NCBI RefSeq assembly: GCF_900143535.1
Contig: NZ_FRFA01000003.1
Location: 248,001 to 312,000, forward strand
Direction: 5' to 3'
DNA from: Tateyamaria sp. Alg231-49
GTDB lineage: Bacteria; Pseudomonadota; Alphaproteobacteria; Rhodobacterales; Rhodobacteraceae
Length of the DNA stretch: 64,000 bases
This document shows, one piece after another, positions 30,052 through 47,724 of this stretch (the stretch's first letter is position 1; each line of letters starts with the position of its first letter). A program made the position numbers and the translations under genes. The notes under the pieces are model-generated. The model saw only the letters and a list, made by a program, of their open reading frames with translations, was not told where the DNA came from and did no database searches.

Positions 30052-30708
30052 TCAGATCCGCGCGAACCGCTGCGCGATTTTCGGGATCAGACCCTGGAAC
30101 TGCAACGGCGCGTCGGTGACGGCCAGACAAATACAATCCTCGTGTATGTCGGCGACGGGCGTGTGGTGCGTGTCACTGTCCGCCATTTCAACATCGCCGC
30201 GCGCGAAATAGTCGCCTTCATCCTGGAAGGCACCCTGCAACACCATCGTCATCTCGATACCGTTATGCCCGTGATCAGGCATTGCAGCGCCCGCCGGGAT
30301 GAAAAGCAGGCGCGCAGACGCCTCGCGCGATGTAGGCAAGATCGCCTGTTTTACCCCAAGGCCAATAGCGCGCCATTTGATGCTGTCCAAATCGCCGCCC
30401 ACGTAGTCCTGCAAAGGACCGGGCAGAATAGAGCCAGGCGCTCGCACGACGGGCGTTTCTTGGACGGGACCGCCCGCAATAAGCGCCATCGTTGCCGCAA
30501 AGCTGCCCGGCGCCAGAGCCACGTCATCTGGCACGTCAAGCGCAAGCACTTCGCCGCCCACAGCGTCATAGCTTTCAACCTCTGCCCGGCATGCGTCACA
30601 AAGTGACACATGCGTGGCAACCATCAGGTTGAATGCCTCGGGAAGAGTGCCCGCCGCATAGGCCATCAGGATATCGTCGGTCAGGTGGTGTTTTATGTCG
30701 TATTCCAT
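30052..30708 (-). CDS. chrR: ChrR-type zinc anti-sigma factor
   Basis: Anti-sigma factor that holds RpoE inactive until singlet oxygen or related stress. The 218-residue protein has the N-terminal zinc anti-sigma domain with His7/His8, His33, Cys37 and Cys40 (ATHVSLCDAC), and a C-terminal cupin domain with HGHNGIEMTMVLQGAF and HTPVADIHEDC. Both parts match R. sphaeroides ChrR, including the ending PKIAQRFARI. ATG at 30708 gives the R. sphaeroides-like N-terminus; a GTG at 30720 overlapping the rpoE stop is an alternative. It follows rpoE in one operon. Confidence 0.95.
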   Translation of the reverse strand: MEYDIKHHLTDDILMAYAAGTLPEAFNLMVATHVSLCDACRAEVESYDAVGGEVLALDVPDDVALAPGSFAATMALIAGGPVQETPVVRAPGSILPGPLQDYVGGDLDSIKWRAIGLGVKQAILPTSREASARLLFIPAGAAMPDHGHNGIEMTMVLQGAFQDEGDYFARGDVEMADSDTHHTPVADIHEDCICLAVTDAPLQFQGLIPKIAQRFARI

Positions 30709-30716
30709 CACTTCAA

Positions 30717-31265
30717 TCACTTCATTGCGTGGCGCAACCGTTCCAGCGCCAATCGTATCCGACTTTTGATCGTGCCAAGTGGCAGACCGGTTTTCTGAGC
30801 GATTTCACTGTGGGACATGTCCCCGAAATACGCCTGTTCTATCAATTCCCGCTGGGCGGCGGGCAATTCTGCAATTGCCTGACCCAACAGTTCGCTTTCT
30901 TGCTGCAAGGCCATCACATCGGCCTGATCAGGTTCTTCTTCTGGGCCCCAAGTCAGTTCTTCGGGCTCGGGGCGGCGCTGCTTGCGCAGCACGTCAATCT
31001 TTCGGTTCCGCGCGATGGTGAAGATCCAGGTCGCCACCGAAGCCCGCGCGGGGTCAAACATGTGCGCTTTGTGCCAACAGGTCGCCAAGACTTCCTGCGC
31101 GCATTCTTCGGCCAGTGATGCGTCGGACCCCGATTTTATCAGGAACCCTTTGACCCGCGGGGCAAAGTGTTCGAACAGTTCGGCAAAGGCCGCCTGATCC
31201 TGATTGTCTCGGATGCGAACCATGTGGCTTACCCACAACATCCGCTTGCCGTCACTGTCATTCAT
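30717..31265 (-). CDS. rpoE: ECF sigma factor RpoE (ECF11, ChrR-controlled)
   Basis: A 182-residue ECF sigma factor. Region 2 is seen in AFAELFEHFAPRVKGFLIK to TWIFTIARNRKIDVLRK, and region 4 in LPAAQRELIEQAYFGDMSH with the helix-turn-helix HSEIAQKTGLPLGTIKSRIR. It directs transcription of the singlet-oxygen response. The ATG at 31265 fits the R. sphaeroides length and has AGGA upstream; longer in-frame extensions lack a ribosome site. chrR follows immediately. Confidence 0.94.
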   Translation of the reverse strand: MNDSDGKRMLWVSHMVRIRDNQDQAAFAELFEHFAPRVKGFLIKSGSDASLAEECAQEVLATCWHKAHMFDPARASVATWIFTIARNRKIDVLRKQRRPEPEELTWGPEEEPDQADVMALQQESELLGQAIAELPAAQRELIEQAYFGDMSHSEIAQKTGLPLGTIKSRIRLALERLRHAMK

Positions 31266-31352
31266 CTTTGCAGGTCCTGTCACCGCCTCTGAGACCATTC
31301 CCATGGGCGGCTGTGCATCTTGATGCATTGTTTCTAGACCTGCGTACATGAA

Positions 31353-31383
31353 TGATCTACGGCCCCTCGTCGCATTTGGATCA
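31353..31383. promoter_or_regulatory. Candidate bidirectional RpoE-dependent promoter
   Basis: On the minus strand TGATCC (31383-31378), an 18-base spacer and TAGATC (31359-31354) resemble the RpoE pattern TGATCC-N18-TAAGNN. On the plus strand TGATCT (31353-31358), 18 bases and TGGATC (31377-31382) occupy the same bases. Both start codons are about 85 bases from the predicted start points. Confidence 0.55.
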
Positions 31384-31473
31384 AAAAATAAATCTCTGGC
31401 ATTTGTACATCCGTTTCGGGCACTGAACCGTACACTGTAGAACAGCCAAGACACACAGGGACTCCCGCCGCTT

Positions 31474-32772
31474 ATGCCTTTTGAACATTCTGCCGCCATC
31501 CGCAAACGTATCGCAGTGATCGGAGGGGGCATTTCGGGGATGGGCGCCGCCCATATGCTCGCCGCCGACCACACTGTTACCCTGTTTGAATCTGAACGCC
31601 GTCTTGGCGGTCACGCGCGCACGATCATGGCGGGCAAGAACGGCGATCAGCCTGTAGATACAGGCTTTCTCGTGTTCAACTACGCCAACTATCCGCACAT
31701 GGCCGCACTGTTTGATGAACTGAGTGTGCCGGTCGTGAAATCAAACATGAGCTTTGGAGCCTCTATAGATGGAGGTCGCCTTGAGTATGGGTTGGCCAGC
31801 CTTGACGCGCTGTTTGCGCAACGCACGAACGCCTTCAATCCTCGTTTTCTCGGCATGGTGCGGGATATCGTGCGCTTTAACCGCAACGCTTTGCGCGTCG
31901 CGAACGAAGATCGGACGCGCACGGTTGCGCAGTTCTTGGATGTTTTGGGCACAGGCCATTGGTTCCGGGACTACTACTTGCTGCCTCTCAGCGGCGCGAT
32001 CTGGTCAACACCAACCGAAAAAATCATGGATTTCCCGGCCCATGCGATGATCCAGTTCTTTGAGAACCATGCGCTGCTTAACACGACTGGCCAACACCAG
32101 TGGTACACAGTCAACGGGGGGTCTATCGAATATGTCCGCCGGCTTGAGGCCGCGATGCGGGCAAATGGTGTCGACATCCGTTTGGGGGCCCCCATTCAGT
32201 CGGTGCGCCGCACTGGGGCGGGTGCTCATGTCAAAGCTTGGGGCGGAGAGTGGGAAGACTTTGACGAGGTCGTCTTTGCGACCCATTCTGATGACAGCCT
32301 GTCGCTGCTGGAAGACCCATCGGACGCCGAAAGCGCCGCGCTGGGTGCTGTAAAGTACCAGCCCAACGATATTGTCCTGCATCGCGACGAAAGCATCATG
32401 CCCAAACGGCGCCAGACCTGGTCCAGCTGGGTCTACACCGAAGACGCCCACACTCAAAGCGATCGAATTGACCTCACCTACTGGATCAATTCGCTACAGC
32501 CTGTGCCAATGGATGACCCCCATTTCGTGACGTTGAATTCCAACCGCGAGATCAAGGACGAGCTGATCTATGATCAAACAGTCTTACGTCACCCTGTCTA
32601 CGATCTGGCCGCACTTGCCGCTCAAGACACCCTGCGTGCCATGAATGGTTCAAAAAACACGTGGTTCTGCGGCGCATGGATGCGTCACGGGTTCCACGAA
32701 GACGGGCTGTCCAGTGCTGTGGACGCGGTGCGTGCGATCAACCGGACCCCCAGCCTGCTGGTGGCTGCATAA
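31474..32772 (+). CDS. FAD-dependent amine-oxidase-like oxidoreductase of the RpoE operon
   Basis: A 432-residue flavoprotein: Rossmann motif IAVIGGGISGMGAAHML, then LFESERRLGGHARTI (second FAD contact), and a C-terminal FAD-binding segment NTWFCGAWMRHGFHEDG. It is the first gene of a five-gene operon whose order matches RSP_1091 to RSP_1087 of R. sphaeroides, genes controlled by RpoE-ChrR. Published work places RpoE-regulon enzymes in conversion of phospholipid acyl chains to furan fatty acids; this flavoprotein could be the desaturase step, but which gene does which step I cannot fix from sequence. Confidence 0.85.
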   Translation: MPFEHSAAIRKRIAVIGGGISGMGAAHMLAADHTVTLFESERRLGGHARTIMAGKNGDQPVDTGFLVFNYANYPHMAALFDELSVPVVKSNMSFGASIDGGRLEYGLASLDALFAQRTNAFNPRFLGMVRDIVRFNRNALRVANEDRTRTVAQFLDVLGTGHWFRDYYLLPLSGAIWSTPTEKIMDFPAHAMIQFFENHALLNTTGQHQWYTVNGGSIEYVRRLEAAMRANGVDIRLGAPIQSVRRTGAGAHVKAWGGEWEDFDEVVFATHSDDSLSLLEDPSDAESAALGAVKYQPNDIVLHRDESIMPKRRQTWSSWVYTEDAHTQSDRIDLTYWINSLQPVPMDDPHFVTLNSNREIKDELIYDQTVLRHPVYDLAALAAQDTLRAMNGSKNTWFCGAWMRHGFHEDGLSSAVDAVRAINRTPSLLVAA

Positions 32773-33531
32773 ATGGCCGCGACGGTCGATCATATTTCTG
32801 GCGTTACCTATCACGGGCGCAAAGGGGCAATCACAAACGCCTTTCGCTATTCCGTGGACTACATGCTGTTGGATGCCGAGGCCTCTGTCACGACCCCATC
32901 CTTGTTTGCCCGCAATGGGCGCAATTTGATGGCGCTGGATGACATCGACCATGGCGGACCGCCCAAGGATGGGCGTGGGGCCGCTTGGGTGCGCGATGTT
33001 TTGCAATCCCATCAAGTGACCGGCGTCGCCCGAATTGAACTGCTCGCCCAGCCCAAAGTGCTGGGCCACGTTTTTAACCCGGTAAGCTTTTGGTTGTGTC
33101 GGCGGGATGACGAGGCGTTGATCGCGGTGATTGCAGAGGTGACCAACACGTTTGGGGACCGTCACAGCTATCTTGTGCATCATTTCGACCTGCGCCCCAT
33201 TGCGCCGGAAGATCGGTTGCAGGCGACCAAGATCCTGCATGTGTCTCCGTTTCAGCCTGTCGAGGGCGGGTACGAATTTCGTTTTGACATCCGGGACGAC
33301 CGTATCGGCGTTTGGATCGACTATTCCCGCGGCCAAGGTGGTCTGATCGCCACTTTGACAGGCAATCGCACTGCACTCACAAACGGCTCGATCCTGCGCG
33401 CCGCTGTGCGCCGCCCGCTCGGCGCGCGCCGGGTCCTGGCGCTGATCCACTGGCAAGCCCTGAAATTGTGGATCAAGCGTGCAGTCTATCGTGCGCGCCC
33501 GTTGCCGCCATCGGATGAGGTGTCGCGGTGA
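32773..33531 (+). CDS. DUF1365 family protein
   Basis: A 252-residue soluble protein of the DUF1365 family, the usual neighbour of the flavin oxidoreductase and often of cyclopropane-fatty-acid-synthase-like enzymes. Family landmarks are YHGRKGAITNAFRYSVDYM, the stretch VLGHVFNPVSFWLC and FHVSPFQP-like LHVSPFQPVEGGYEF. It starts at once after the previous stop codon and overlaps the next gene by four bases. A role in modifying acyl chains is inferred from context and from the R. sphaeroides regulon. Confidence 0.9.
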   Translation: MAATVDHISGVTYHGRKGAITNAFRYSVDYMLLDAEASVTTPSLFARNGRNLMALDDIDHGGPPKDGRGAAWVRDVLQSHQVTGVARIELLAQPKVLGHVFNPVSFWLCRRDDEALIAVIAEVTNTFGDRHSYLVHHFDLRPIAPEDRLQATKILHVSPFQPVEGGYEFRFDIRDDRIGVWIDYSRGQGGLIATLTGNRTALTNGSILRAAVRRPLGARRVLALIHWQALKLWIKRAVYRARPLPPSDEVSR

Positions 33532-34763
33532 GCAACACGCGACACCATGGCCTATCGGCCTATGCGGTGTTTGCCGCATTGCTCGCTTCGGCGGGTCTGC
33601 CGATCTATATCCACGCGCCAAAGTACTACGTGGATGAATACGGCGTGTCGCTGGCCGCGTTGGGGGCCGTGTTGTTTGGCCTGCGCCTGCTTGACGTGGT
33701 GCAGGACCCGCTATTCGGACGTCTTAGTGAGGCTCTGCGCAGCCGTCGGGGTCTGGGCGTGCTGATTGGGTGTACTGTCATGGCGCTGTCGATGCTGGGC
33801 CTGTTCGCGGTGCAACCTCTGCTGCCGCCACTGATCTGGTTCGCACTTATGCTGACGGGGGTCTTCTCTGCCTTCAGCTTCCTCACCATCAACTTTTATG
33901 CCCAAGGGGTGGTCAAGGCTGATCACCTGCCCGGCAACGGCCATTTGTCGCTCGCGCGCTGGCGGGAAACTGGGGCGCTTTTGGGCGTGTGTGTCGCAGC
34001 CATCGCACCGGTCATGCTGGGCGGGATCATGGGTGCACCCTTTGCTGGGTTTGCGGTCGGGTTTTGCGTTCTTGCCCTCGCCGCTGTCGTTATGATGCGG
34101 GGCGAATGGGTGAACGACGGCCTGCCACCGTCTGTAGGTTTTCGTGCCGTGTTGAACGACACACTGGCCCGTCGCCTGCTCCTGATCGCACTGGTCAATG
34201 CAGCACCGGTTGCAGTGAGTTCGACGCTATTCCTGTTTTTCGTCGAAAGTCGCCTTTTGGCACCGGGGTTCGAAGGACCGCTCTTGCTCCTCTTCTTCCT
34301 CAGCGCTGCTGCTGCTGCACCCGTCTGGGGCAAGCTGGCAGAGCGCTACGGCACCAAGCCTGTGTTGCTTTTCGCCATGGTTCTGGCCATCGCGGCCTTT
34401 GGAGGGGCGATGACCCTTGGGCCGGGCGACTGGGCAGCCTTTGCAGTCATATGCGTGCTGTCTGGGGCGACACTGGGGGCAGACCTCACGCTTCTTCCGG
34501 CCGTGTTTGCGTCGCGTATGGCGCGCATCAGCCCATCGGCCGCAGAAGGTTTTGGCCTGTGGTCCTTTGTTTCGAAATTCACGCTGGCCTTTGCCGCTGT
34601 CACCCTGCTTCCGCTTTTGGAAAACGCAGGCTTTGACAGCGCGGCGGCCAGCAACACGCCCGAGGCGCTTGCGCTTCTCACGCTGCTTTATGCAGCCGTG
34701 CCTTGTGGCCTCAAACTTGTCGCCATCCTGCTGTTGGCGACCACAGATTTAAAGGAGACGTGA
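33528..34763 (+). CDS. MFS transporter of the GPH-like type (RpoE operon)
   Basis: A 411-residue inner-membrane protein with 12 hydrophobic segments, resembling the glycoside-pentoside-hexuronide:cation symporter branch of the MFS. The loop after the second segment reads RLLDVVQDPLFGRLSEALRSR, with the D-P-x-x-G-R-x-x-D/E-like pattern of this branch. Despite the sugar-symporter name, its conserved place in the RpoE operon makes lipid or another stress metabolite a plausible substrate. GTG start overlaps the DUF1365 stop. Confidence 0.85.
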   Translation: MSNTRHHGLSAYAVFAALLASAGLPIYIHAPKYYVDEYGVSLAALGAVLFGLRLLDVVQDPLFGRLSEALRSRRGLGVLIGCTVMALSMLGLFAVQPLLPPLIWFALMLTGVFSAFSFLTINFYAQGVVKADHLPGNGHLSLARWRETGALLGVCVAAIAPVMLGGIMGAPFAGFAVGFCVLALAAVVMMRGEWVNDGLPPSVGFRAVLNDTLARRLLLIALVNAAPVAVSSTLFLFFVESRLLAPGFEGPLLLLFFLSAAAAAPVWGKLAERYGTKPVLLFAMVLAIAAFGGAMTLGPGDWAAFAVICVLSGATLGADLTLLPAVFASRMARISPSAAEGFGLWSFVSKFTLAFAAVTLLPLLENAGFDSAAASNTPEALALLTLLYAAVPCGLKLVAILLLATTDLKET

Positions 34764-34764
34764 C

Positions 34765-35346
34765 ATGGACGGACTGACCTATGCACTGATCGGTGCTGGC
34801 GTGATCCTCGCGCTCAACTGGGCGTGGACGCGCTATGCCGGTTTTCTTGCGCAAGCGCCCGAAGACTACGCTGCAGACGGCACGGTGTTCGACATTCGTA
34901 CCCACCTGAACGGCCCGATCATCTGCGAAGGTGTCATTTACGGTCCAACTGGCCGGGTATCATCGCGTTTTGTGGGCGAGTTTGACTGCAACTGGGACGG
35001 CAATCGTGGGGTCATGAAAGAACACTTCCGCTATGACGATGGGTCCGAACAATCCCGCGCATGGGACCTGACGCTTGGCAATGACGGGCGCATCCGCGCG
35101 CTGGCTGAAGACATTCAGGGCGAAGGAAGCGGTCAGCAAAAGGGCAATGCCGTACAGCTGAAATACCGCTTTATCCTGCCCGAAAAATCCGGTGGACACG
35201 TGCTGGACACTGTCGATTGGATGTATCTGGCGCCCAACGGGACCATCGTTAATCGCTCACAGTTCCGCAAATACGGGATTAAAGTGGCAGAGTTGGTCGC
35301 AACCATGCGCCCAGCCCCGGCAGCAGAAATGAAAGAAGCGGCATGA
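34765..35346 (+). CDS. DUF3833 family protein
   Basis: A 193-residue protein. The N-terminal hydrophobic segment (residues about 4-22, YALIGAGVILALNWAWTRYA) probably anchors it or acts as a signal sequence, and is followed by a lipocalin-like beta-rich domain: FDIRTHLNGPIICEG, RVSSRFVGEFDCNWDG, YRFILPEKSG. DUF3833 is the usual fourth gene of the RpoE operon. A lipid-handling role fits but is not shown. One base separates it from the MFS gene, and it overlaps the SDR gene. Confidence 0.85.
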   Translation: MDGLTYALIGAGVILALNWAWTRYAGFLAQAPEDYAADGTVFDIRTHLNGPIICEGVIYGPTGRVSSRFVGEFDCNWDGNRGVMKEHFRYDDGSEQSRAWDLTLGNDGRIRALAEDIQGEGSGQQKGNAVQLKYRFILPEKSGGHVLDTVDWMYLAPNGTIVNRSQFRKYGIKVAELVATMRPAPAAEMKEAA

Positions 35347-36080
35347 GCAACACTGATTTGCACGGCAAACGCTACTGGATCGTCGGGGGTGGCGACGGGC
35401 TGGGCAAGGCGCTGGCCCATCATATGAGCCGTGCAGGTATCGAAGTCGTTGTTTCATCACGCGGAGAAGACAAACTGACCGCGCTGGTTGATGAATTGCC
35501 GGGCAAGGCATCATACCAAGTCGTCGACATTGCCGACGATGCAAGCGTCAAAGCCGCCGCCAAAGCGGTTGGTGATATCGATGGTGTGGTATTGTTGGCG
35601 GGCGTGTACTGGCCATTCTCTGCGCGCAAATGGAATGCGGAACAGGCTGTCGCCATGGCCGACATCAATTTCACAGGTTTCATGCGCGTGTTGGGTCAGA
35701 TCGTGCCGAAGTTTGTGGAAAAAGACGCGGGCCATATCGTGATTACCTCGTCCCTGACCGGGTTTCGCGGCCTGCCCGGATCCATCGGCTACACCGCGTC
35801 CAAGGCCGCCACGATGTCTTTGGCCGAATGCATGCACGCCGATCTTCGCAAAACTGGTGTGCGGGTGCAGGTGGCCAACCCCGGCTTTATCAAGACACAG
35901 CTGACCGAGAAAAACGATTTCAACATGCCCTTCATCATGGAACCCGAAGATGCAGCGCGTGAAATGTTCGAATTGATGCTGACGGATCGGTTCAAGAAGA
36001 GCTTTCCAACGCTGTTTTCGCTGCTGTTCCGAGGATCGCAATTCTTGCCGGATTGGGCCTACTACCGACTGTTTTCCTGA
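35343..36080 (+). CDS. Short-chain dehydrogenase/reductase of the RpoE operon
   Basis: A 245-residue classical SDR: cofactor motif WIVGGGDGLGKALA, with the variant GGGDGLG in place of TGxxxGxG, catalytic Ser in VITSSLTG, and YTASKAA with catalytic Tyr and Lys. NAD(P)-dependent, substrate unknown. It ends the five-gene block shared with R. sphaeroides. A gap of 92 bases separates it from the PhyH gene, without a clear terminator. Confidence 0.9.
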   Translation: MSNTDLHGKRYWIVGGGDGLGKALAHHMSRAGIEVVVSSRGEDKLTALVDELPGKASYQVVDIADDASVKAAAKAVGDIDGVVLLAGVYWPFSARKWNAEQAVAMADINFTGFMRVLGQIVPKFVEKDAGHIVITSSLTGFRGLPGSIGYTASKAATMSLAECMHADLRKTGVRVQVANPGFIKTQLTEKNDFNMPFIMEPEDAAREMFELMLTDRFKKSFPTLFSLLFRGSQFLPDWAYYRLFS

Positions 36081-36172
36081 TCAGAACCGACGCCCTGACG
36101 TCGTGCACAGAACAGAATTTGCGCCTTGATCAAGGGACCCTGACGACCCGACCGGACGTTAAGGGATCCGTC

Positions 36173-37051
36173 ATGCTTGATACTATGACACTGAAGAACG
36201 GGCGTCTGACACAGCCCCAAACTGAAAACTACTGGCGCGATGGATTTCTCTTCCCCCTGCCAGCGATCAACCCAAAGGCCGCCAGCGCGGCGCGCGCCGA
36301 GTTGGAAGAGATTGAGAACACCTGGCGTACCGCCGACCTGCCCCATCCCTTAAACACCTACAAACGCGTCAACGCGCATGTCGTCATGCCAATGGCCGCT
36401 CGCCTCGCACGCGACCCCGCCGTGCTGGACGTCATCGAGGGCATCCTTGGTACTGACATTCTGATCTACTCCACAGAGTTTTTCATCAAAGAGCCCAACA
36501 CACGCCAGATCGTCTCTATGCATCAGGATCTCACCTATTGGGGGCTGGGAGCCATAGATGGACTTGTGACCGCATGGATCGCGCTATCACCCGCAACGCC
36601 CGCTTCGGGCTGCATGGACTTCGTAGCCGCAAGCCACAAGAACGCCATTCTTGAACACGAAGACAGCTTTGACCCCGATAACCTGCTTAGCCGGGGGCAG
36701 GAGGTCAAAGTGGATGTTGCGGAATCCGACAAGACCTCGATCGAGATTCACCCCGGCCAGATGAGCCTGCATCACGGGCTGACCATTCATGGCTCTGGTC
36801 CAAACACAACAGATGACCGACGCATCGCCTGCGTTGTGCGTTACATCCGCCCGGACATGGCCCAACAAGTCGGCGGTCAGGACTTTGCCATGCATGCACG
36901 TGGTGATGACAAATTCGGCAATTTCACTCATGTACCAGCGCCGGCACATGCCTTTGCACCCGAGGCACTGGCGCTCTATGACCGGATACGCAATGTTCAG
37001 GCGCAGATCATGATGAAAGACGCCAAGGGCTCAACGGAGATTTACGCATGA
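36173..37051 (+). CDS. PhyH-family Fe(II)/2-oxoglutarate dioxygenase
   Basis: A 292-residue non-haem iron oxygenase of the phytanoyl-CoA dioxygenase superfamily. The facial triad is visible: His117 and Asp119 in MHQDLTYWG and a distal His (His206 in LTIHGSGPN), with Arg217 or nearby for 2-oxoglutarate. The style of the sequence (AWIALSPATPASGCM, LLSRGQE) resembles TmpA-like phosphonate hydroxylases more than EctD. It overlaps the HD-domain gene by four bases, as expected for such two-enzyme pairs. ATG at 36173 follows AAGGGA. Substrate is not proven. Confidence 0.83.
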   Translation: MLDTMTLKNGRLTQPQTENYWRDGFLFPLPAINPKAASAARAELEEIENTWRTADLPHPLNTYKRVNAHVVMPMAARLARDPAVLDVIEGILGTDILIYSTEFFIKEPNTRQIVSMHQDLTYWGLGAIDGLVTAWIALSPATPASGCMDFVAASHKNAILEHEDSFDPDNLLSRGQEVKVDVAESDKTSIEIHPGQMSLHHGLTIHGSGPNTTDDRRIACVVRYIRPDMAQQVGGQDFAMHARGDDKFGNFTHVPAPAHAFAPEALALYDRIRNVQAQIMMKDAKGSTEIYA

Positions 37052-37665
37052 TGGACCACGTAAAATTCACCGCGATGAAGGATGGCGATCGCGAGGATTA
37101 TACCTTTCTGACAGAACACGAAGTGGCGTTCACAAAAGGCACGGCGGATCGTCTGCTGACAGCGCTTGAAACGCTGGACGAAGGGTTGTCAGGCTATCAG
37201 ATCACGCGGCTGGGTCACTCGCTGCAATCTGCCACGCGCGCATGGCGTGATGGGGCGGACACGGACTGGGTGGTGGCCACGTTGCTGCACGACATCGGCG
37301 ATATCTTTGCCCCCTATAATCACGACGAATACGCCGCGAGCATCATTAAACCCTTTGTGCGTGAACAATGCACATGGGTCGTAGAAAAACACGGCGATTT
37401 CCAGATGGTCTATTACGGACACCATGTGGGCGGCAATCAGCACAAGCGTGACGCTTATGCGGGACACGCCTATTTCGACGACTGTGCGACGTTTTGCGAA
37501 CGCTGGGACCAGTCCAGTTTCGATCCGGACTACGACATGCTGCCACTGGATCACTTCCGCCCAATGGTACGCGAGGTGTTTGCGCGCAAGGCATATGATC
37601 CGGCCGTGATGCAGCCCGGCGTTCGGGTGCCATTGGTGGATGCCGAGGTTGCCAGCGAGCGATAA
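37048..37665 (+). CDS. HD-domain protein of the PhnZ/TmpB-like diiron oxygenase type
   Basis: A 205-residue HD-superfamily protein with ligands spaced as in the mixed-valent diiron oxygenases: His57, His81-Asp82 (LLHDIGD), His92, His115, His125 and Asp154 (CERWDQSSFDPDY). Characterised relatives PhnZ and TmpB cleave the C-P bond of alpha-hydroxyphosphonates made by a partner 2-oxoglutarate oxygenase. Here the partner gene is directly upstream and translationally coupled. Phosphate transport or phosphonate uptake genes are absent nearby, so a non-phosphonate substrate stays possible. An HD hydrolase is the alternative. Confidence 0.75.
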   Translation: MMDHVKFTAMKDGDREDYTFLTEHEVAFTKGTADRLLTALETLDEGLSGYQITRLGHSLQSATRAWRDGADTDWVVATLLHDIGDIFAPYNHDEYAASIIKPFVREQCTWVVEKHGDFQMVYYGHHVGGNQHKRDAYAGHAYFDDCATFCERWDQSSFDPDYDMLPLDHFRPMVREVFARKAYDPAVMQPGVRVPLVDAEVASER

Positions 37666-41498: not shown

Positions 41499-42707
41499 TC
41501 ACCCGTCGATGGCGGCCTTGTACCACGCGACAATTGCGGCGCGCTCCGCGTCTTCCATGTAGCTCAGATTGGCGGGCGGCATGGCATGGCTGATCCCAGA
41601 TTGCAGGTAAACGGCGCGGGCGTTGCGGGTCAGATCCGCTTCTGTTTCCAGCGCCACGCCTTTTGGTGCCCATAGCAGTCCCGACCAGACCGGTTCGGCG
41701 GCATGGCACATGCTGCAACGCCCCAGCACGATTTCGTGCACCTCTTCGAACCCTTCGGCTTGCGCAAACCGTGCAACCCGCTGCGCCTCTTGGTTTGGGC
41801 TGGGGGCGACACTCAGCCAGACAATCGCGATAAAGATCAATGCGGTCACTGCCCACGTCCAGTGCGGATTGCCCTGACGGGAATGGTGCGTGTTGAACCA
41901 GTGCCGGATCGTGACCCCCATGAGGAAAACAAGGCTCGCGATGATCCAATTGTACTCACTCGCAAAGGACAGCGGGTAGTGGTTGGACAGCATCAGGAAG
42001 ATCACCGGCAGGGTGAGATAATTGTTGTGGGTCGAGCGTTGCTTGGCAATTTTGCCGTACTTTGCGTCTGGGGTGCGTCCCTCCATCAGATCCGACACAA
42101 CGATTTTTTGGTTGGGGATGATGATGAAAAAGACGTTGCCCGACATGATCGTGGCCGTGAATGCACCCAGATGGAGCAAGGCCGCGCGCCCTGTAAACAC
42201 CTGCGTGTAAAACCACGCCATGGCCACCAGAACAGCAAACAGGGCCACCATAAGGGTGGTCTGATTGGCGTTTACGAACAAGTTGCACAGCTGCGTATAG
42301 GCCAGCCAGCCAAAAGCGAGCGAGGCGAGCGAAATGCCAACCGCCTGCCAAGGCGCGAGGTCCATAACGTTGGGGTCAACCAGATAGAATTCAGCACCGA
42401 GGTAGTAGACTAACACAAGCAGGACAAAGCCGCTCATCCACGTCCAGTAGCTTTGCCATTTATGCCAGATCAGCCCGTCGGGCATGCCTGCCGGCGCCAC
42501 GAGGTACTTTTGAATGTGGTAGAACCCGCCCCCGTGGACCTGCCATTCTTCGCCATCTGCGCCGCTGGACAGGTTGCGATCCCGGTGCAGCCCAAGATCA
42601 AGCGCGATGAAATAAAATGAAGACCCGATCCAAGCGATGGCCGTAATGACGTGCAACCAACGGACAGCGAATTCGGCCCAAGCGCCCAGTGCGGCCAGAT
42701 CGTACAT
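41499..42707 (-). CDS. puuD: Membrane-bound urate hydroxylase PuuD with C-terminal cytochrome c
   Basis: A 402-residue protein of the PuuD type, which oxidises urate to 5-hydroxyisourate and passes electrons to a cytochrome chain, replacing soluble uricase. Eight hydrophobic segments (start [20 protein letters not shown]) are followed by a cytochrome c domain with CSMCH (haem attachment) and a candidate distal Met in [10 protein letters not shown]. It belongs to the purine cluster, though a cydB relic now lies between it and the permease gene. Confidence 0.93.
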
Positions 42708-42772
42708 GTTGTGTTACCCCTTTGCTCTTGCATAGCAGAATAGCAGGGGTACGCGGAGACGAAAGGGCTGAA

Positions 42773-42815
42773 GGGGCTCTGCCCCCGGCCTTCGGCCTCC
42801 CCCGTGGTATTTTTG
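42773..42815 (+). repeat. GC-rich intergenic repeat of the type common in Rhodobacteraceae
   Basis: GGGGCTCTGCCCC and GGCCTTCGGCC form two small hairpins followed by TCCCCCGTGGTATTTTT. This arrangement recurs between genes in many Rhodobacteraceae genomes (from memory). Here it lies between puuD and the cydB relic, so it may mark the rearrangement. Confidence 0.55.
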
Positions 42816-42816
42816 G

Positions 42817-43478
42817 TCAAGAGATGCTCAATCGTAGCGCTGCCCGACCGCTTTTCCCCTGAACACCCAGCGCTGTGTATCCGCCGATCATCGGCAGTAC
42901 GAACACTGTGCCGACAAGGATTATGAACAGGCTTTCCGGTGCGCTCGCTGCCTCATAGATCGTCAGTTTTCCGGGACCACGTAAAGATAAAACGAGTATG
43001 CGAGCCCGCCAAACGCCAGAATAAACAGGCTGATGGCATAGCAGAACGGTGCCCGCGCACCTTTGCCCGTCGTGTTGGGCAGGCGTTGCAGGGATCGCCA
43101 CGGCATCCAGACCAGCACAGCCGACAAGAGCGGCATTGGCGTCTGCAGAACGATTTCCGGGTAGGTGAACCATTTGTCGAAAACCCCGGGGCTGACCAAA
43201 GGTTTCGCGAGCGATACCGCCCCAAGAACAAGGGCCAGACCCCAGATCCTGCCTTGTGCCCAGTCGACCGCCTTGGCTTGAAGGGTGTATTCGGTTTTCA
43301 GGATCAGCCAGCATGCGCCGATAATGGAATAGGCCACCAGCAGCAGACCAATGGCGAGTACCAGCCATGTTTCATTCGCGTTCCAGAATGAGCCAATGGT
43401 CGCAACCATCATGTCCTTTTCTTCATTCGAGGCGAAAGGGAATAAAATCTCCACACCCAGTTCAAAGCGGAAAAAGCT
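42817..43478 (-). pseudogene. cydB: cydB relic (cytochrome bd-type oxidase subunit II)
   Basis: Reading on the minus strand gives FELGVEILFPFAS (the DxGxGILFPF region at the end of helix 1), FWNANETWLVL, then directly GLLLVAYSIIGACWLILKTE, WFTYPEIVLQTPMPLL, and after a frameshift near 42968 the C-terminal LTIYEAASAPESL and LPMIGGYTALGVQ. These are CydB/CioB landmarks in order. The first helix and roughly 120 central residues are missing, so there is an internal deletion, a start loss and a frameshift. No cydA is nearby. Confidence 0.85.
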
Positions 43479-43601
43479 TTATTCGATGCACTACAAATAA
43501 CAAATGGATCGTCGATATCAGCGCAGCTGCGACAGCATGCCGATGCCACACCGGTGCGCGTTTCGTCGCGGCGTTTTAAAAGCGGCCAGTGGTCCAAATG
43601 C

Positions 43602-43630
43602 AAAGAGCGGAGGCGTTGCCCCCGCTCTTT
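43602..43630 (-). terminator. Rho-independent terminator of the purine permease gene
   Basis: AAAGAGCGG (43602-43610) pairs with CCGCTCTTT (43622-43630). It lies 22 bases after the permease stop, so transcription of the purine operon probably ends here before the cydB relic and puuD. Confidence 0.8.
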
Positions 43631-43651
43631 AGACACAGCATGAATGCTGTC

Positions 43652-44971
43652 TTAGATCTCTTCTGGCAGGACCAGATTGAGGATGATGGCCACCGCAGCC
43701 GTTGGAGCCACAGCAGATGTCATCAGAGTTTTGACCACACCGGGCAGGTACTGGACTGCCGATGGGACAAGGTTCAGGCCTAGACCGGCTGCAAGTGACA
43801 CGGCGATGATCACCATGTTGCGGCGGTTCATCTTGACCTCGGTCAACACGTTAAGGCCAGCGGCCGCCACCATGCCGAACATCACGATCACACCACCCCC
43901 CAGCACGGGCAACGGCATGGAAGCAATCACGGCACCAATCTTGGGGATCAGACCACACAGGATCAGGAACAGCGCGCCGATGGTGACGACATGGCGTGAC
44001 ATGATACCAGTCATGCCAATGATGCCGACATTCTGGCTGAAGGATGTGTTTGGCAGGCCACCAAAGACCGCAGCAACAGCGGTGCCTAAACCGTCCGCAT
44101 ATGTCGCACCGGCGATTTCCTTGTCCGTCGCATCACGCCCGGCACCGGCCTTGGTCGTCGCCGACGCATCACCCACCGTTTCAATGGCGGACACAACGCT
44201 AACAAGGACCACAGCGATCACCGCGCCAAGGTTGAACTCAAAGCCATAGGGCAACGGCTGTGGCGTGACAAATAGCGCAGCATTCGCGACCGCACCAAAG
44301 TTCACCATGCCCAAGGCAATGGCGAGCAAATAGCCGACGACCAGACCAATCAGAATACCCGCATTTGAAAGGATACCCTTGGTGAAGAATTTAAACAGCA
44401 AAGCGACAACAACGACTGTGAGGGCAACGCTCCAATGCATAAGCGAGCCAAAGCTCTCGGCCTCCATTTGGAAGGGTGCCGCCCCACCAGCCGCGTATTT
44501 GATCGCAACCGGAATAAGATAAAGGCCAATGGCCAAGATCACGAGGCCGGTCACCAACGGTGGAAAGAGGAAACGCAGGTGCTGAATGACGGAGCCAAGA
44601 AAGAAGTGGACCACTCCGCCGATCAGGCACGCAGTAAGCGCGACGCCCAGACCTTGGGTGGCGGCGATCCCTGCGAGCACACCTACAAAGGCAAAGCTGG
44701 TGCCCTGCATAATCGGCAACCGCGCGCCCACAGGGCCAAAACCGACGGTCTGGAACAGCGTCGCAATGCCTGCAAACAGCATCGCCATCTGGATCAGATA
44801 GACCTGCTCTGGCCCACCAAACGCAAGGCCCGCAGCCCCCGCCACGATGATCGAGGGCGTCACATTCGATGCGAACATGGCCAGCACGTGTTGCAGGCCC
44901 AGCGGCACCGCCTCGGCCAGAGGCGGCGTATCATTTGGGTCTGAGTAATACCCATCAGTCATGTTAGTCAT
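43652..44971 (-). CDS. Purine/xanthine:cation symporter (NCS2 family)
   Basis: A 439-residue inner-membrane permease with about 12-14 hydrophobic segments. The NCS2 signature QNVGIIGMTGIMSR is present (segment 10 region), as are PIMQGTSFAFVG and the GDASATTKAGAGRDAT loop. Members take up xanthine, urate or uracil. Position within the urate/allantoin genes favours urate or xanthine. The start context is MTNMTDGYYSDPND with modest ribosome site. Confidence 0.92.
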   Translation of the reverse strand: MTNMTDGYYSDPNDTPPLAEAVPLGLQHVLAMFASNVTPSIIVAGAAGLAFGGPEQVYLIQMAMLFAGIATLFQTVGFGPVGARLPIMQGTSFAFVGVLAGIAATQGLGVALTACLIGGVVHFFLGSVIQHLRFLFPPLVTGLVILAIGLYLIPVAIKYAAGGAAPFQMEAESFGSLMHWSVALTVVVVALLFKFFTKGILSNAGILIGLVVGYLLAIALGMVNFGAVANAALFVTPQPLPYGFEFNLGAVIAVVLVSVVSAIETVGDASATTKAGAGRDATDKEIAGATYADGLGTAVAAVFGGLPNTSFSQNVGIIGMTGIMSRHVVTIGALFLILCGLIPKIGAVIASMPLPVLGGGVIVMFGMVAAAGLNVLTEVKMNRRNMVIIAVSLAAGLGLNLVPSAVQYLPGVVKTLMTSAVAPTAAVAIILNLVLPEEI

Positions 44972-45018
44972 TGTTCATTGTCCCTGTTTCTCGCCGTCTT
45001 ATATGCGGCTGAGAAAAG

Positions 45019-45507
45019 TTATGAGACGACGCGATAGGGCGGATCAAGTGAAAACTCTTGCAGGTTCGCGCCGGGGCCAATCCTGTCCACTACTGCAAAC
45101 AATCCGGGCGCATGCAGCGGAGTGAGCACGCCATGCCACGTCCCACGATGCAGATTGATGCCCTGACCGGGGGCCGTCAGGAACGCCACAGGCTGGCCAG
45201 GCACGCCGTGGTCGTCCAAAGCGACCGTGACCAGAAATGAGTGCTCGGACATTGGAATGAACGCCTGACTGCCCTCTGGGTGCCGTTCCAGCAGATCAAG
45301 TGTATAGGGCAGTGCACGTGGCGTGGCCTTGAACAGGCTCACGCCTGCCTGCCCGTCCCCAAAATCCATGCGCGCACGGTCATGAAAGCGGCCGCACATG
45401 CCCGCATTGATCAACTTGTCCGGGTCTCCGACACACTCAAGCACGTCACCAAAGGGCGCAAATGCCTCTGCGGTCAAAGGTTGGCATTGAATATCAGAGC
45501 GGAACAT
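45019..45507 (-). CDS. allA: Ureidoglycolate lyase
   Basis: A 162-residue AllA: starts with MFRSDIQCQPLTAEAFAPFGDVLE, includes HPEGSQAFIPMSEHSFLV and the C-terminal HRGTWHGVLTPL, the usual family landmarks. It splits ureidoglycolate to glyoxylate and urea. Its start overlaps the stop of the upstream allE gene by 14 bases. Confidence 0.95.
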   Translation of the reverse strand: MFRSDIQCQPLTAEAFAPFGDVLECVGDPDKLINAGMCGRFHDRARMDFGDGQAGVSLFKATPRALPYTLDLLERHPEGSQAFIPMSEHSFLVTVALDDHGVPGQPVAFLTAPGQGINLHRGTWHGVLTPLHAPGLFAVVDRIGPGANLQEFSLDPPYRVVS

Positions 45508-46306
45508 GCCGGTTCACATCTTTGTAGAGCATGTAGCGAAAAGGCTCCGTTCCTGTTGCGATACAGGCCTGTGGGCAAAACGCACGCAACCACATGAAGT
45601 CACCGGGGCCCACACTGACCCAATCCGTGTTCAGCAGGTATTCGGCAGTGCCTTGCAACACATATAGCCCGTGTTCCATCACGTGCGTTTCGGCAAACGG
45701 AATGCGAGCGCCTGGCAGAAAGTTCACCAGATTGACGTGGCAATCGTGGCGCAAATCCAGAGGATCGACAAAACGCTGCGTGGCCCACGCGCCATTGGTG
45801 CCGGGCATGGGCACTGCCTTGACGTCCGTCTCGTGCGTCACAATAGGTTCAGGCAGCGTCAGCCCGTCCCCCTGCACATAGCGTTTGCGAACCCAATGGA
45901 CGCCGCAGGGCACGTCGCCCCGGTTGAAAAGAGTCCATTGGGCCCCCGAAGGGATATAGGCGTAACTGCCCGGCGTCATAACGTGCACGGTCGCCCCAAT
46001 GGTCAAATGCGCTGTCCCCTTGGCGACGAACAGGATCGCCTGTGCATCCTTGTCAGGTTCGGGATCATTGCTGCCTCCCTCGGGCGCAAGCTCGATGGCA
46101 TATTGGGCAAAGGTTTCAGCAAAGCCCGAGAGGGGCCGCGCTAGTATCCATGCACGCGTGCCAGCCCAACCAGGCAAGAAGGACGTCACGATATCCCGCT
46201 GGGTCTCGGCAGGGATCACAGCATAGGCTTGGGTGAAAACTGCAGTGCCCACAGGTGATTTATCTTGAGCCGGATGGCCTCCGGGCGGAAAAGCATAAGT
46301 GCTCAT
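45494..46306 (-). CDS. allE: (S)-ureidoglycine aminohydrolase (bicupin)
   Basis: A 270-residue two-cupin protein of the YlbA/AllE type. The second cupin holds the metal site FAETHVMEHGLYVLQG. The first cupin (AILFVAKGTAHLTIG) is degenerate for metal binding. It converts ureidoglycine to ureidoglycolate plus ammonia, feeding AllA downstream. The substrate is normally made by AllC, which is absent in this window. Overlaps the allantoinase fusion gene by four bases. Confidence 0.93.
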   Translation of the reverse strand: MSTYAFPPGGHPAQDKSPVGTAVFTQAYAVIPAETQRDIVTSFLPGWAGTRAWILARPLSGFAETFAQYAIELAPEGGSNDPEPDKDAQAILFVAKGTAHLTIGATVHVMTPGSYAYIPSGAQWTLFNRGDVPCGVHWVRKRYVQGDGLTLPEPIVTHETDVKAVPMPGTNGAWATQRFVDPLDLRHDCHVNLVNFLPGARIPFAETHVMEHGLYVLQGTAEYLLNTDWVSVGPGDFMWLRAFCPQACIATGTEPFRYMLYKDVNRHVPL

Positions 46307-47724
46307 TCCATGTCCTCCAATCGCAATCGCGCGATGCGTTCGACCTGCTTGCAGGCCTCTGTGAATTCGGTCGCGGAATCATTGCCGATCCGGCGCTCAA
46401 AAGCGCGCAGAATGCCCGCCTTGTCATGATCCTTTACCGCGATGATGAAGGGAAAGCCGTGTTTGGCCACATAGGCGCTGTTTTGGGTGTCGAACTGGTG
46501 GCGTTCGTCATCCGTCAGTGCATCAAGGCCCGCGCTCGCTTGCTCGGCCGTACTCTCATCCGTCAGCCGCTTGGCCGCTGCCAACTTGCCCGCGAGGTCG
46601 GGGTGGGCCCGCAGAACTTCCAACCGCTGATCGTCGCTCGCGGCACGAAACACGCGACACAGGGCGTTATGCAGGCCCTGAGCAGAATCGTGCGCTGGCC
46701 CAAGTTCCAGCGCCCATGCGCCTTCGGCAATCCAAGGCGAGTGTTCAAATATCCCGCCAAAGGTCGACACGAAGGCCTCTTGCCCCAACAGGTGCCAGTT
46801 GTGACGGCGTTGAGGGGGATGCGTGGCCGCCCAATGCGCCGCAATATCTGTGCGACGGGCGCACCAGACCCCTTCAAACCCATTTATGTACTCAATGAAT
46901 TTGCGTAGCGCCTGCACCCGACCCGGACGCCCTATAAGGCGACAGTGCAGACCGATGCTCAGCATTGCTGGGCGTCCTGACGTGCCTTCGGCATACAGCG
47001 CATCAAAACTGTCCCGCAGGTAGGCAAAAAACTGATCCCCTGCATTAAACCCCTGCGGTGTGGCAAAGCGCATGTCGTTACAATCAAGCGTGTAGGGGAT
47101 GATCAGCTGATCGCGCCCATCGGCGTCGATCCAATAGGGCAGATCATCGTCATAGGTGTCGCTGATCCAGTCAAAGCCCCGCTGCGCAGCCAAGGCCACC
47201 GTGTTCACCGAACAACGCCCGGTGTACCATCCCATCGGACGCGCGCCGGTGACTTCGGTGTGCAGTTTGATGGCCGCATCCATATCGGCGGCTTCGTCTT
47301 CAGGTGTGTGATCCTTGTAGTCGATCCATTTCAATCCGTGGCTGGCGATTTCCCAGTCGGCCTGCTGCATCGCCTCGACCTGCGCCGGATTGCGCGCCAG
47401 GGCTGTTGCGACGCCGTAGACCGTGACCGGCACGCGGGTTTCGGTGAACAGCCTGTGAAGCCGCCAGAACCCCGCGCGCGCGCCGTAGTCATAGATGCTT
47501 TCCATATTCCAATGGCGTTGTCCGGGCCACGGGGCGGCGCCTACAATCTCTGAAAGGAACGCTTCGGACGCCGCATCGCCGTGCAACAGGCAGTTTTCGC
47601 CGCCTTCTTCATAGTTCAGCACAAAAGACACAGCGATCCGCGCCCCACCGGGCCACGCCGCATCGGGTCGATCGGCCCCGTGCCCATGAAAATCGCGCGG
47701 GTAACGGGGGCTCTTTTCAGCCAT
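46303..47724 (-). CDS. Allantoinase PuuE fused to OHCU decarboxylase (UraD)
   Basis: A 473-residue fusion. Residues about 1-300 are a polysaccharide-deacetylase-like allantoinase (PuuE): YPRDFHGHGADRPDAAWPGG, ASHGLKWIDY, WYTGRCSVNT. Residues about 310-473 are 2-oxo-4-hydroxy-4-carboxy-5-ureidoimidazoline decarboxylase: FGGIFEHSPWIAEGAW (catalytic His), LRAHPDLAGK and YVAKHGFPFI. The two steps bracket allantoin: OHCU to (S)-allantoin, then to allantoate. AAAGGGAAG precedes the ATG at 47724. Similar fusions are known in Alphaproteobacteria. Confidence 0.95.
   Translation of the reverse strand: MAEKSPRYPRDFHGHGADRPDAAWPGGARIAVSFVLNYEEGGENCLLHGDAASEAFLSEIVGAAPWPGQRHWNMESIYDYGARAGFWRLHRLFTETRVPVTVYGVATALARNPAQVEAMQQADWEIASHGLKWIDYKDHTPEDEAADMDAAIKLHTEVTGARPMGWYTGRCSVNTVALAAQRGFDWISDTYDDDLPYWIDADGRDQLIIPYTLDCNDMRFATPQGFNAGDQFFAYLRDSFDALYAEGTSGRPAMLSIGLHCRLIGRPGRVQALRKFIEYINGFEGVWCARRTDIAAHWAATHPPQRRHNWHLLGQEAFVSTFGGIFEHSPWIAEGAWALELGPAHDSAQGLHNALCRVFRAASDDQRLEVLRAHPDLAGKLAAAKRLTDESTAEQASAGLDALTDDERHQFDTQNSAYVAKHGFPFIIAVKDHDKAGILRAFERRIGNDSATEFTEACKQVERIARLRLEDME

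Follow-up and report, generated by a model that had tools for sequence, protein, structure and literature searches.

The overlapping genes at positions 36173-37665 of a 64,000-nt stretch of DNA from Tateyamaria sp. Alg231-49 (NZ_FRFA01000003.1, 248,001 to 312,000, forward strand; hereafter the window, to whose full length all positions refer) encode a PhyH-type Fe(II)/2-oxoglutarate (2OG) oxygenase and an HD-domain protein, called here PhyH and HD. The pair was confirmed to exist and is conserved, and it is likely to constitute a two-step enzyme system. The reading favoured here, for which support and doubt are about evenly balanced, is that the pair forms an oxidative module acting on a trimethylammonium (quaternary ammonium) compound, with HD representing a clade beside the PhnZ/TmpB and MIOX oxygenases. 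Breakdown of such a compound by the pair appears more likely than breakdown of a phosphonate or a lipid. The HD family is widespread (98 of the 295 genomes sampled from the family to which the window belongs) and apparently uncharacterised, and among the open-access literature matches listed there was no report tying carnitine or betaine catabolism to an oxygenase of the HD-domain type. In the following, L and G numbers are the labels given in the analysis to fetched loci and to sampled genomes, respectively.

The gene pair, its active sites and predicted folds

Both open reading frames (ORFs) of the overlapping pair proposed in an earlier annotation of this DNA (the original prediction) were found in place; each starts with ATG and the overlap is ATGA. 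PhyH scored 92 bits against PF05721 (cutoff 22) in a Pfam scan. The alignment with 26 relatives demonstrated that its iron triad H117/D119/H206 and the 2OG Arg217 are unchanged in all of them, and the Asp in the triad points to a site of the hydroxylase type and not of the halogenase type. The AlphaFold model of PhyH (pLDDT 90) was matched best in PDB by ThoJ (6zyl; E 9.1e-26, TM 0.82/0.91).

The ligands of HD, H57, H81, D82, H92, H115 and D154 (pattern H..HD..H..H..D), were unchanged in 160/160 aligned relatives, and F118, Q119, R134, F158 and F170 were likewise invariant. The full sets of HD-type ligands and of the Fe triad, already proposed for the pair, are present, and at the sequence level the six-ligand site is complete, contrary to the missing second iron site named in the original prediction as an outcome that would speak against it. 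HD scored 21.1 bits against PF01966 (HD; cutoff 22), 21.4 bits against PF05153 (MIOX; gathering cutoff 25) and 36.7, 23.8 and 25.2 bits against TIGR03276, NF049941 and NF052439 (cutoffs 214.6, 300 and 300), none of the cutoffs being reached. All 10 further HD relatives tested were also far under the NCBIfam phosphonate-HD cutoffs (11/11 with the window HD).

A structure prediction set against PhnZ and TmpB had been recommended as a check. The model of HD (pLDDT 96.4) gave these two proteins as the top matches (PhnZ, Z 17.2, 3.0 A across 153 residues; TmpB, Z 16.4), followed by MIOX (Z 11.2), with a Z of at most 8.0 in the other rows shown; as judged from this model, the three known HD oxygenases outrank all other rows. 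A second HD-like match in the 4.5 Mb genome that carries the window (E 0.12) was discarded, as no HD-type ORF is present at that place.

Comparison with known HD oxygenases and 2OG partners

The original prediction had ascribed to the pair the make-up of the PhnY/PhnZ and TmpA/TmpB systems. The order of a 2OG hydroxylase followed by a likely HD oxygenase is supported, and so is the six-ligand set common with PhnZ, which acts with PhnY in the C-P (carbon-phosphorus) cleavage of 2-aminoethylphosphonate; membership of HD in PhnZ or TmpB is not. A YxxE loop is described in the accessible text of PMC8177086 as present in PhnZ (Y24/E27) and TmpB (Y30/E33) and absent from MIOX. It is absent from the window HD, where the aligned residues are L47 and Y50, and in the HD family the E27 position is occupied by Tyr or Phe in 159/160 relatives and by Glu in 0/160, with Tyr at the Y24 position in 6/160. 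Where PhnZ and TmpB have a His, four residues downstream of the HD His, 157/160 relatives have an Asp (D85 in the window HD, in which the PhnZ motif HDxGH reads HDIGD), and the Arg three residues before the last Asp, lost in the window HD, is kept in 1/160. Since HD lacks the YxxE loop, has other residues in place of two basic ones and falls short of the model cutoffs, it is placed outside PhnZ/TmpB, and by the tests made on its sequence it is judged not to be a member of PhnZ, TmpB or MIOX. The phosphonate-binding residues of PhnZ were taken by us to be H62, K108 and R158, and the residue K127 of MIOX is likewise our assumption.

The likeness to TmpB, which acts with TmpA on trimethylaminoethylphosphonate, includes the trimethylammonium theme, and TmpA-family TauD oxygenases precede some relatives of the window HD; the partner in the window, in contrast, is PhyH and not TauD. 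MIOX shares the identical ligand set but works with no 2OG partner (PMC8177086, in the part available).

The nearest solved relative of PhyH is ThoJ (phmmer E 6.1e-34), which together with TsaJ represents the thioamitide histidine beta-hydroxylases of the PhyH family. These proteins differ from PhyH in being only 28-29 % identical to it and in acting on a peptide in the biosynthesis of ribosomally synthesised and post-translationally modified peptides, and we know of no HD partner of either. According to the accessible text of PMC8153245, TsaJ, the ThoJ homologue, hydroxylates histidine only after its bis-N-methylation, i.e. when it is permanently charged.

Pairing of PhyH and HD and phylogeny

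The 295 sampled genomes represent 294 genera. HD was scored as present in 98 of them after 3 of 101 initial genomes had been dropped (two with weak matches only and one with a broken copy), and PhyH, at a threshold of E <= 1e-40, in 56. HD was found in 53 of the 56 genomes with PhyH in comparison to 45 of the 239 without it (Fisher 2e-27, phylogeny ignored). PhyH stands directly before HD, separated from it by -1 to 71 bases, in 39 of the 60 PhyH rows, that is in 39 of the 98 HD genomes, and in one further row it lies 1.5 kb from HD; the pair is thus linked well beyond the window, contrary to the outcome named in the original prediction as one that would speak against it. In 59/98 HD genomes HD occurs with no adjoining PhyH. 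It follows from the pairing and adjacency counts that PhyH is rarely found without HD and HD often without PhyH, and PhyH may be regarded as an optional hydroxylase for HD.

The HD tree was built by FastTree only and contains long branches and many weak forks. PhyH-linked HDs, unlabelled HDs and those of carnitine operons (see below) fell into one clade of 79 rows with 99 % local support. Members of the HD family are also found in SAR11, rhizobia, gammaproteobacteria and other groups.

The many HD genes lacking an adjoining PhyH could mean that HD belongs to the phosphohydrolases or to other hydrolases, with PhyH being just a frequent neighbour. The HD superfamily consists mostly of phosphohydrolases, some of them dinuclear (PMC8177086, accessible text), and relatives of HD are annotated as phosphohydrolase and HD domain protein. 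The fold comparison topped by three HD oxygenases, the scarcity of PhyH without HD, and the occurrence of a second 2OG family, TauD, directly before HD speak against a hydrolase, which is considered distinctly unlikely.

Quaternary-ammonium genes in the neighbourhood of HD relatives

The analysed loci comprised 80 + 86 fetched stretches and the window (167 in total), with HD called in 161; the remaining 6 were dropped from the counts. The fetched stretches were mostly 15-17 kb long and their genes were predicted with our own ORF caller, which gave few or no calls in some loci of lower GC content; some loci repeat one genome (for example L037/L149, L047/L156, L059/L186 and L067/L196). Of one additional set of loci, only L235 and L237 served as a basis for claims. 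A quaternary-ammonium marker was present in 26/161 HD loci. Several of these matches are weak, such as that in L076 (25 % identity), those in L189 and L227 (in each case a single match resembling sarcosine oxidase) and that in L201 (divergent).

A carnitine-operon arrangement was found in 13 loci (Table 1), in which HD lies between a BKACE gene and a carnitine dehydrogenase gene, followed by genes for an acyl-CoA dehydrogenase, a CoA ligase and a crotonobetainyl-CoA-hydratase-like protein. The dehydrogenase exceeded the carnitine 3-dehydrogenase cutoff in 6/6 loci tested. The HDs of these operons are 72-76 % identical to the window HD and their hosts are Mesorhizobium, Hoeflea, Tabrizicola, Pseudotabrizicola and other relatives. 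Seven of the 13 loci are near-identical Mesorhizobium-type operons, and the tree indicates at least two separate events of HD arrival in carnitine operons. A small additional ORF stands beside HD in L172, L176, L178 and L190.

In five loci (L110, L111, L134, L144 and L204; 5/161) HD is immediately preceded, on the same strand, by a TmpA/BBOX-family oxygenase of the TauD type (BBOX, gamma-butyrobetaine hydroxylase), and in L134 and L144 the next gene encodes a choline-binding protein. Members of this oxygenase group are judged likely to act on N-methylated substrates in the available part of PMC9296572. The TauD of L134 is the sole partner whose score (423 bits) lies above the curated cutoff for TmpA of 400 bits. 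Against the BBOX model TIGR02409 the TauD neighbours scored 215-326 bits, all under the cutoff of 414.75; the view of the TauD partners as plain BBOX is therefore not supported, none of those scanned reaching the cutoff and their acid-binding residues being different. In L144, located on the P. aeruginosa plasmid pF045_1, the genes at L144:6872-12829 encode TauD, HD, a choline-binding protein, choline dehydrogenase and aldehyde dehydrogenase; this cluster is possibly a catabolic island.

Genes of the MTTB superfamily were found near HD in L107, L118 and L175 (282-306 bits, the trimethylamine methyltransferase cutoff of 525 not being reached), and sarcosine oxidase genes over the cutoff in L112 and L118. 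Since relatives of HD have carnitine, choline, MTTB, sarcosine oxidase and TmpA/BBOX-like genes as neighbours, the substrate is placed among trimethylammonium compounds.

The co-occurrence data, whose p values ignore phylogeny and genome size, demonstrated carnitine dehydrogenase in 93 of the 98 family genomes with HD vs 122 of the 197 without it (p 1e-10), and no such association for phnJ, used as a control (46/98 vs 100/197, p 0.54). On another contig, the genome of the window itself encodes a carnitine dehydrogenase next to a BKACE relative; no HD was called between the two genes. A search of this genome for TmpA/BBOX gave no match, and neither did the control genomes of that search.

One alternative is a PhnY/PhnZ- or TmpA/TmpB-type pair, in which PhyH would hydroxylate a phosphonate such as trimethylaminoethylphosphonate and HD would free phosphate. 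The fold ranking, the TmpA-like score of the L134 TauD, the nature of PhnY as another 2OG oxygenase and the presence of phnJ in the genome are in its favour, as is the Arg retained in three TauD partners (discussed below). Because the loop and the characteristic residues are missing, the model cutoffs are not reached and phnJ is unassociated with HD, C-P cleavage was lowered to an unlikely alternative. In line with the original prediction, no phosphonate gene was found among the 20 window proteins scanned with Pfam (the pair included); the contig does carry a single phnJ, 38 kb to the left of the window. The suspicion voiced there of a substrate other than a classic phosphonate has thus gained support.

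Several other arrangements were observed. HD follows genes for an amidohydrolase and a small Rieske protein in L174, L175 (Mesorhizobium) and L107 (domains tested in L175), and an FMN oxidoreductase gene as well as the MTTB gene is present near HD in L107 and L175. A sterol-desaturase/fatty-acid-hydroxylase-type gene comes directly after HD in L054, L061, L143 and L191 (Pfam tested in L061). In L069 (tested) and in L067, L070 and L072 (by clustering), HDs of about 60 % identity lie 1-2 genes from a DUF1761 gene in a shared block with no obvious partner enzyme.

Proposed reaction of the pair

In the two-step module on a trimethylammonium compound, PhyH as an Fe/2OG oxygenase would first hydroxylate the substrate, and HD as an oxygenase of the mixed-valent diiron type would then cleave the bond adjoining the hydroxyl with O2, no outside reductant being needed. 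The hydroxyl of the substrate would be bound to one iron and O2 to the other, as deduced from the known HD oxygenases (PMC8177086, in the part available). The product would be glycine betaine or a precursor thereof, and HD could act alone wherever the hydroxylated compound is supplied as such. The genes, their active-site residues, linkage and neighbourhoods and the modelled fold are observed, and from them the diiron state, the oxygenase activity, the substrate class and the product are deduced.

Any naming of the exact substrate is a guess. The simplest version, set against the background of trimethyllysine and BBOX biology, would lead from gamma-butyrobetaine through carnitine to glycine betaine and glycolate, the second step balancing with one O2. 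By structural analogy, carnitine may be viewed as the carboxymethyl counterpart of the TmpB substrate, trimethylammonium-CH2-CH(OH)-X, with X being CH2COO- instead of phosphonate, and purely by this analogy the carnitine version would be chemically parallel to TmpA/TmpB. BBOX would catalyse the reaction proposed here for PhyH, but PhyH belongs to another 2OG subfamily.

In its most far-reaching form, which is conceivable though doubtful, the proposal is that the HD family represents a new kind of HD-domain oxygenase and cuts a C-C bond of carnitine-like beta-hydroxy trimethylammonium compounds with O2 to give glycine betaine in one step, requiring no CoA, NAD or reductase; that PhyH is a new, non-TauD hydroxylase making the substrate of HD from gamma-butyrobetaine-like precursors; and that SAR11 bacteria use HD alone, with their genes maybe being counted as phnZ in marine surveys that name phnZ the dominant phosphonate route. 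If the trimethylammonium reading is true, HD oxygenase chemistry would be extended beyond inositol and phosphonates, and an O2-dependent route would be added to carnitine/betaine turnover.

HD genes in SAR11 and marine phnZ counts

HD was present in 14 Pelagibacteraceae rows at 55-58 % identity. The SAR11 single-cell loci are L198, L202, L206, L208, L209, L211, L212, L214, L215, L217, L224, L225, L226 and L228. The gene immediately before HD belongs to one cluster in 14/14 and is purF in L208, the one tested. Twelve SAR11 genomes, picked for having HD, were searched, and 2/12 contained a PhyH relative. In 11/12 the sole match to the Phn-HD model was weak (36-40 bits, cutoff 214.6) and lay at the coordinates of the HD-family gene; the remaining genome encodes a second, more PhnZ-like protein, still under the cutoff with 173.6 bits. 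This gene content argues against a fixed tie of HD to carnitine genes and also against the SAR11 HDs being PhnZ.

In the accessible text of Lockwood et al. (PMC9381506), Pelagibacterales account for 45 % of marine phnZ sequences and phnZ is named the dominant route; the phnZ set used there came partly from GORG-Tropics single-cell genomes and was filtered on conserved residues. SAR11 HD-family genes could inflate such marine phnZ counts.

Observations weighing against a trimethylammonium substrate

A number of observations weigh against the favoured trimethylammonium module. Of the 46 strongest PhyH rows, one is the row 1.5 kb from HD and six are not beside HD (one of these at a contig end), none of the 14 weaker PhyH rows adjoins HD, and genome G043 carries PhyH in its usual place with no HD, its sole HD lying elsewhere and being 43 % identical. 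Most HD loci (135/161) contain no quaternary-ammonium marker in the fetched stretch, and PhyH itself is beside such a marker in no fetched locus. Carnitine dehydrogenase was seen to adjoin HD in only two family genomes (G008 and G010), among the matches listed and the few pairs compared, and exceeded the cutoff in 0/12 SAR11 genomes (three at 283-295 bits). In the carnitine operons HD would be unneeded because the known route to glycine betaine is already there. A strict reading limited to carnitine was lowered on account of the SAR11 data and the many marker-free loci.

The active sites raise further doubts. The D85 of HD, located where PhnZ and TmpB have His, could by its position argue against any anionic substrate there. 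In the TauD partners of L134, L144 and L110 an Arg is retained at the position of TmpA R288, whose role in phosphonate binding is given in the available part of PMC9296572, but the residue aligned with TmpA N187 is an Asp. Since the Arg is kept but Asp is found at the N187 position, the acid-binding site of these TauD proteins is unlike those of both TmpA and BBOX.

Class II aldolase genes are directly beside HD in L071, L120, L126, L133, L135, L146 and L148, and five genes away in L147. Six of the seven loci with a direct aldolase neighbour belong to one 25-row branch of the tree, which suggests that this branch of the HD family has another substrate. The aldolases fit a MIOX-like cleavage of a nitrogen-free vicinal diol or polyol, in which the pair would take part in the catabolism of sugars, polyols or carboxylates, and so do the lack of the YxxE loop in MIOX and the RefSeq name of one close relative (L143), inositol oxygenase family protein. 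However, the 79-row branch of the window HD contains no aldolase-labelled member and 13 carnitine-operon members, and the PF05153 cutoff was missed, so this explanation is considered quite improbable.

Genomic context of the pair in the window

Table 1. Features of the window and HD loci in carnitine operons
Feature	Position or locus	Strand	Basis
PhyH-type Fe(II)/2-oxoglutarate oxygenase, 292 aa	36173..37051	+	PF05721, invariant ligands, model
HD-domain protein, likely diiron oxygenase, 205 aa	37048..37665	+	six ligands, model, fold ranking
ChrR-type anti-sigma factor (context)	30052..30720	-	TIGR02451 205.4 bits, cutoff 124.5
RpoE-type ECF sigma factor (context; the called ORF probably begins too far upstream)	30717..31574	-	profile scans
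FAD oxidoreductase - DUF1365 - MFS - DUF3833 - SDR operon (context)	31474..36080	+	Pfam
SDR-PhyH gap, 92 bases	36081..36172	+	promoter/terminator/motif scans
Carnitine-operon HD loci	L051, L104, L105, L153, L157, L158, L159, L163, L168, L172, L176, L178, L190

The RpoE/ChrR-type operon that the original prediction placed 92 bases upstream of the pair is present at that distance. It resembles the R. sphaeroides RSP1091-1087 operon (PMC7380195, accessible text), the gene-by-gene equivalence being deduced from gene order and DUF1365. Simple scans of the SDR-PhyH gap revealed neither a sigma-70-like promoter nor a forward terminator, and eight aligned stretches upstream of PhyH had no clear common motif.

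The position of the pair behind this operon, on the same strand and with no terminator found between them, led to the idea of a pathway for a lipid head group or a damaged lipid under RpoE/ChrR control. Among the 167 loci the operon genes accompany the pair in no others than the window and L037/L149, the latter two being one contig of the same genus (L149 is an uncultured Tateyamaria); elsewhere the pair occupies different sites, in many cases with a molybdopterin dehydrogenase gene on one side and valS on the other. As described in the available part of PMC7380195, ufaM and two operon genes are sufficient for the furan fatty acid in R. sphaeroides. Because the neighbourhood is genus-specific among the fetched loci and the simple scans revealed no promoter, terminator or shared upstream motif, the lipid substrate was set aside as very improbable.

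The remaining called genes of the window gave no match in a BLAST search for carnitine/choline-type markers only. Two window genes presumably encode RmuC and MutL. Purine/urate degradation genes, encoding urate oxidase, a xanthine/uracil permease and OHCU decarboxylase, are located at 41499-47622 of the window on the minus strand.

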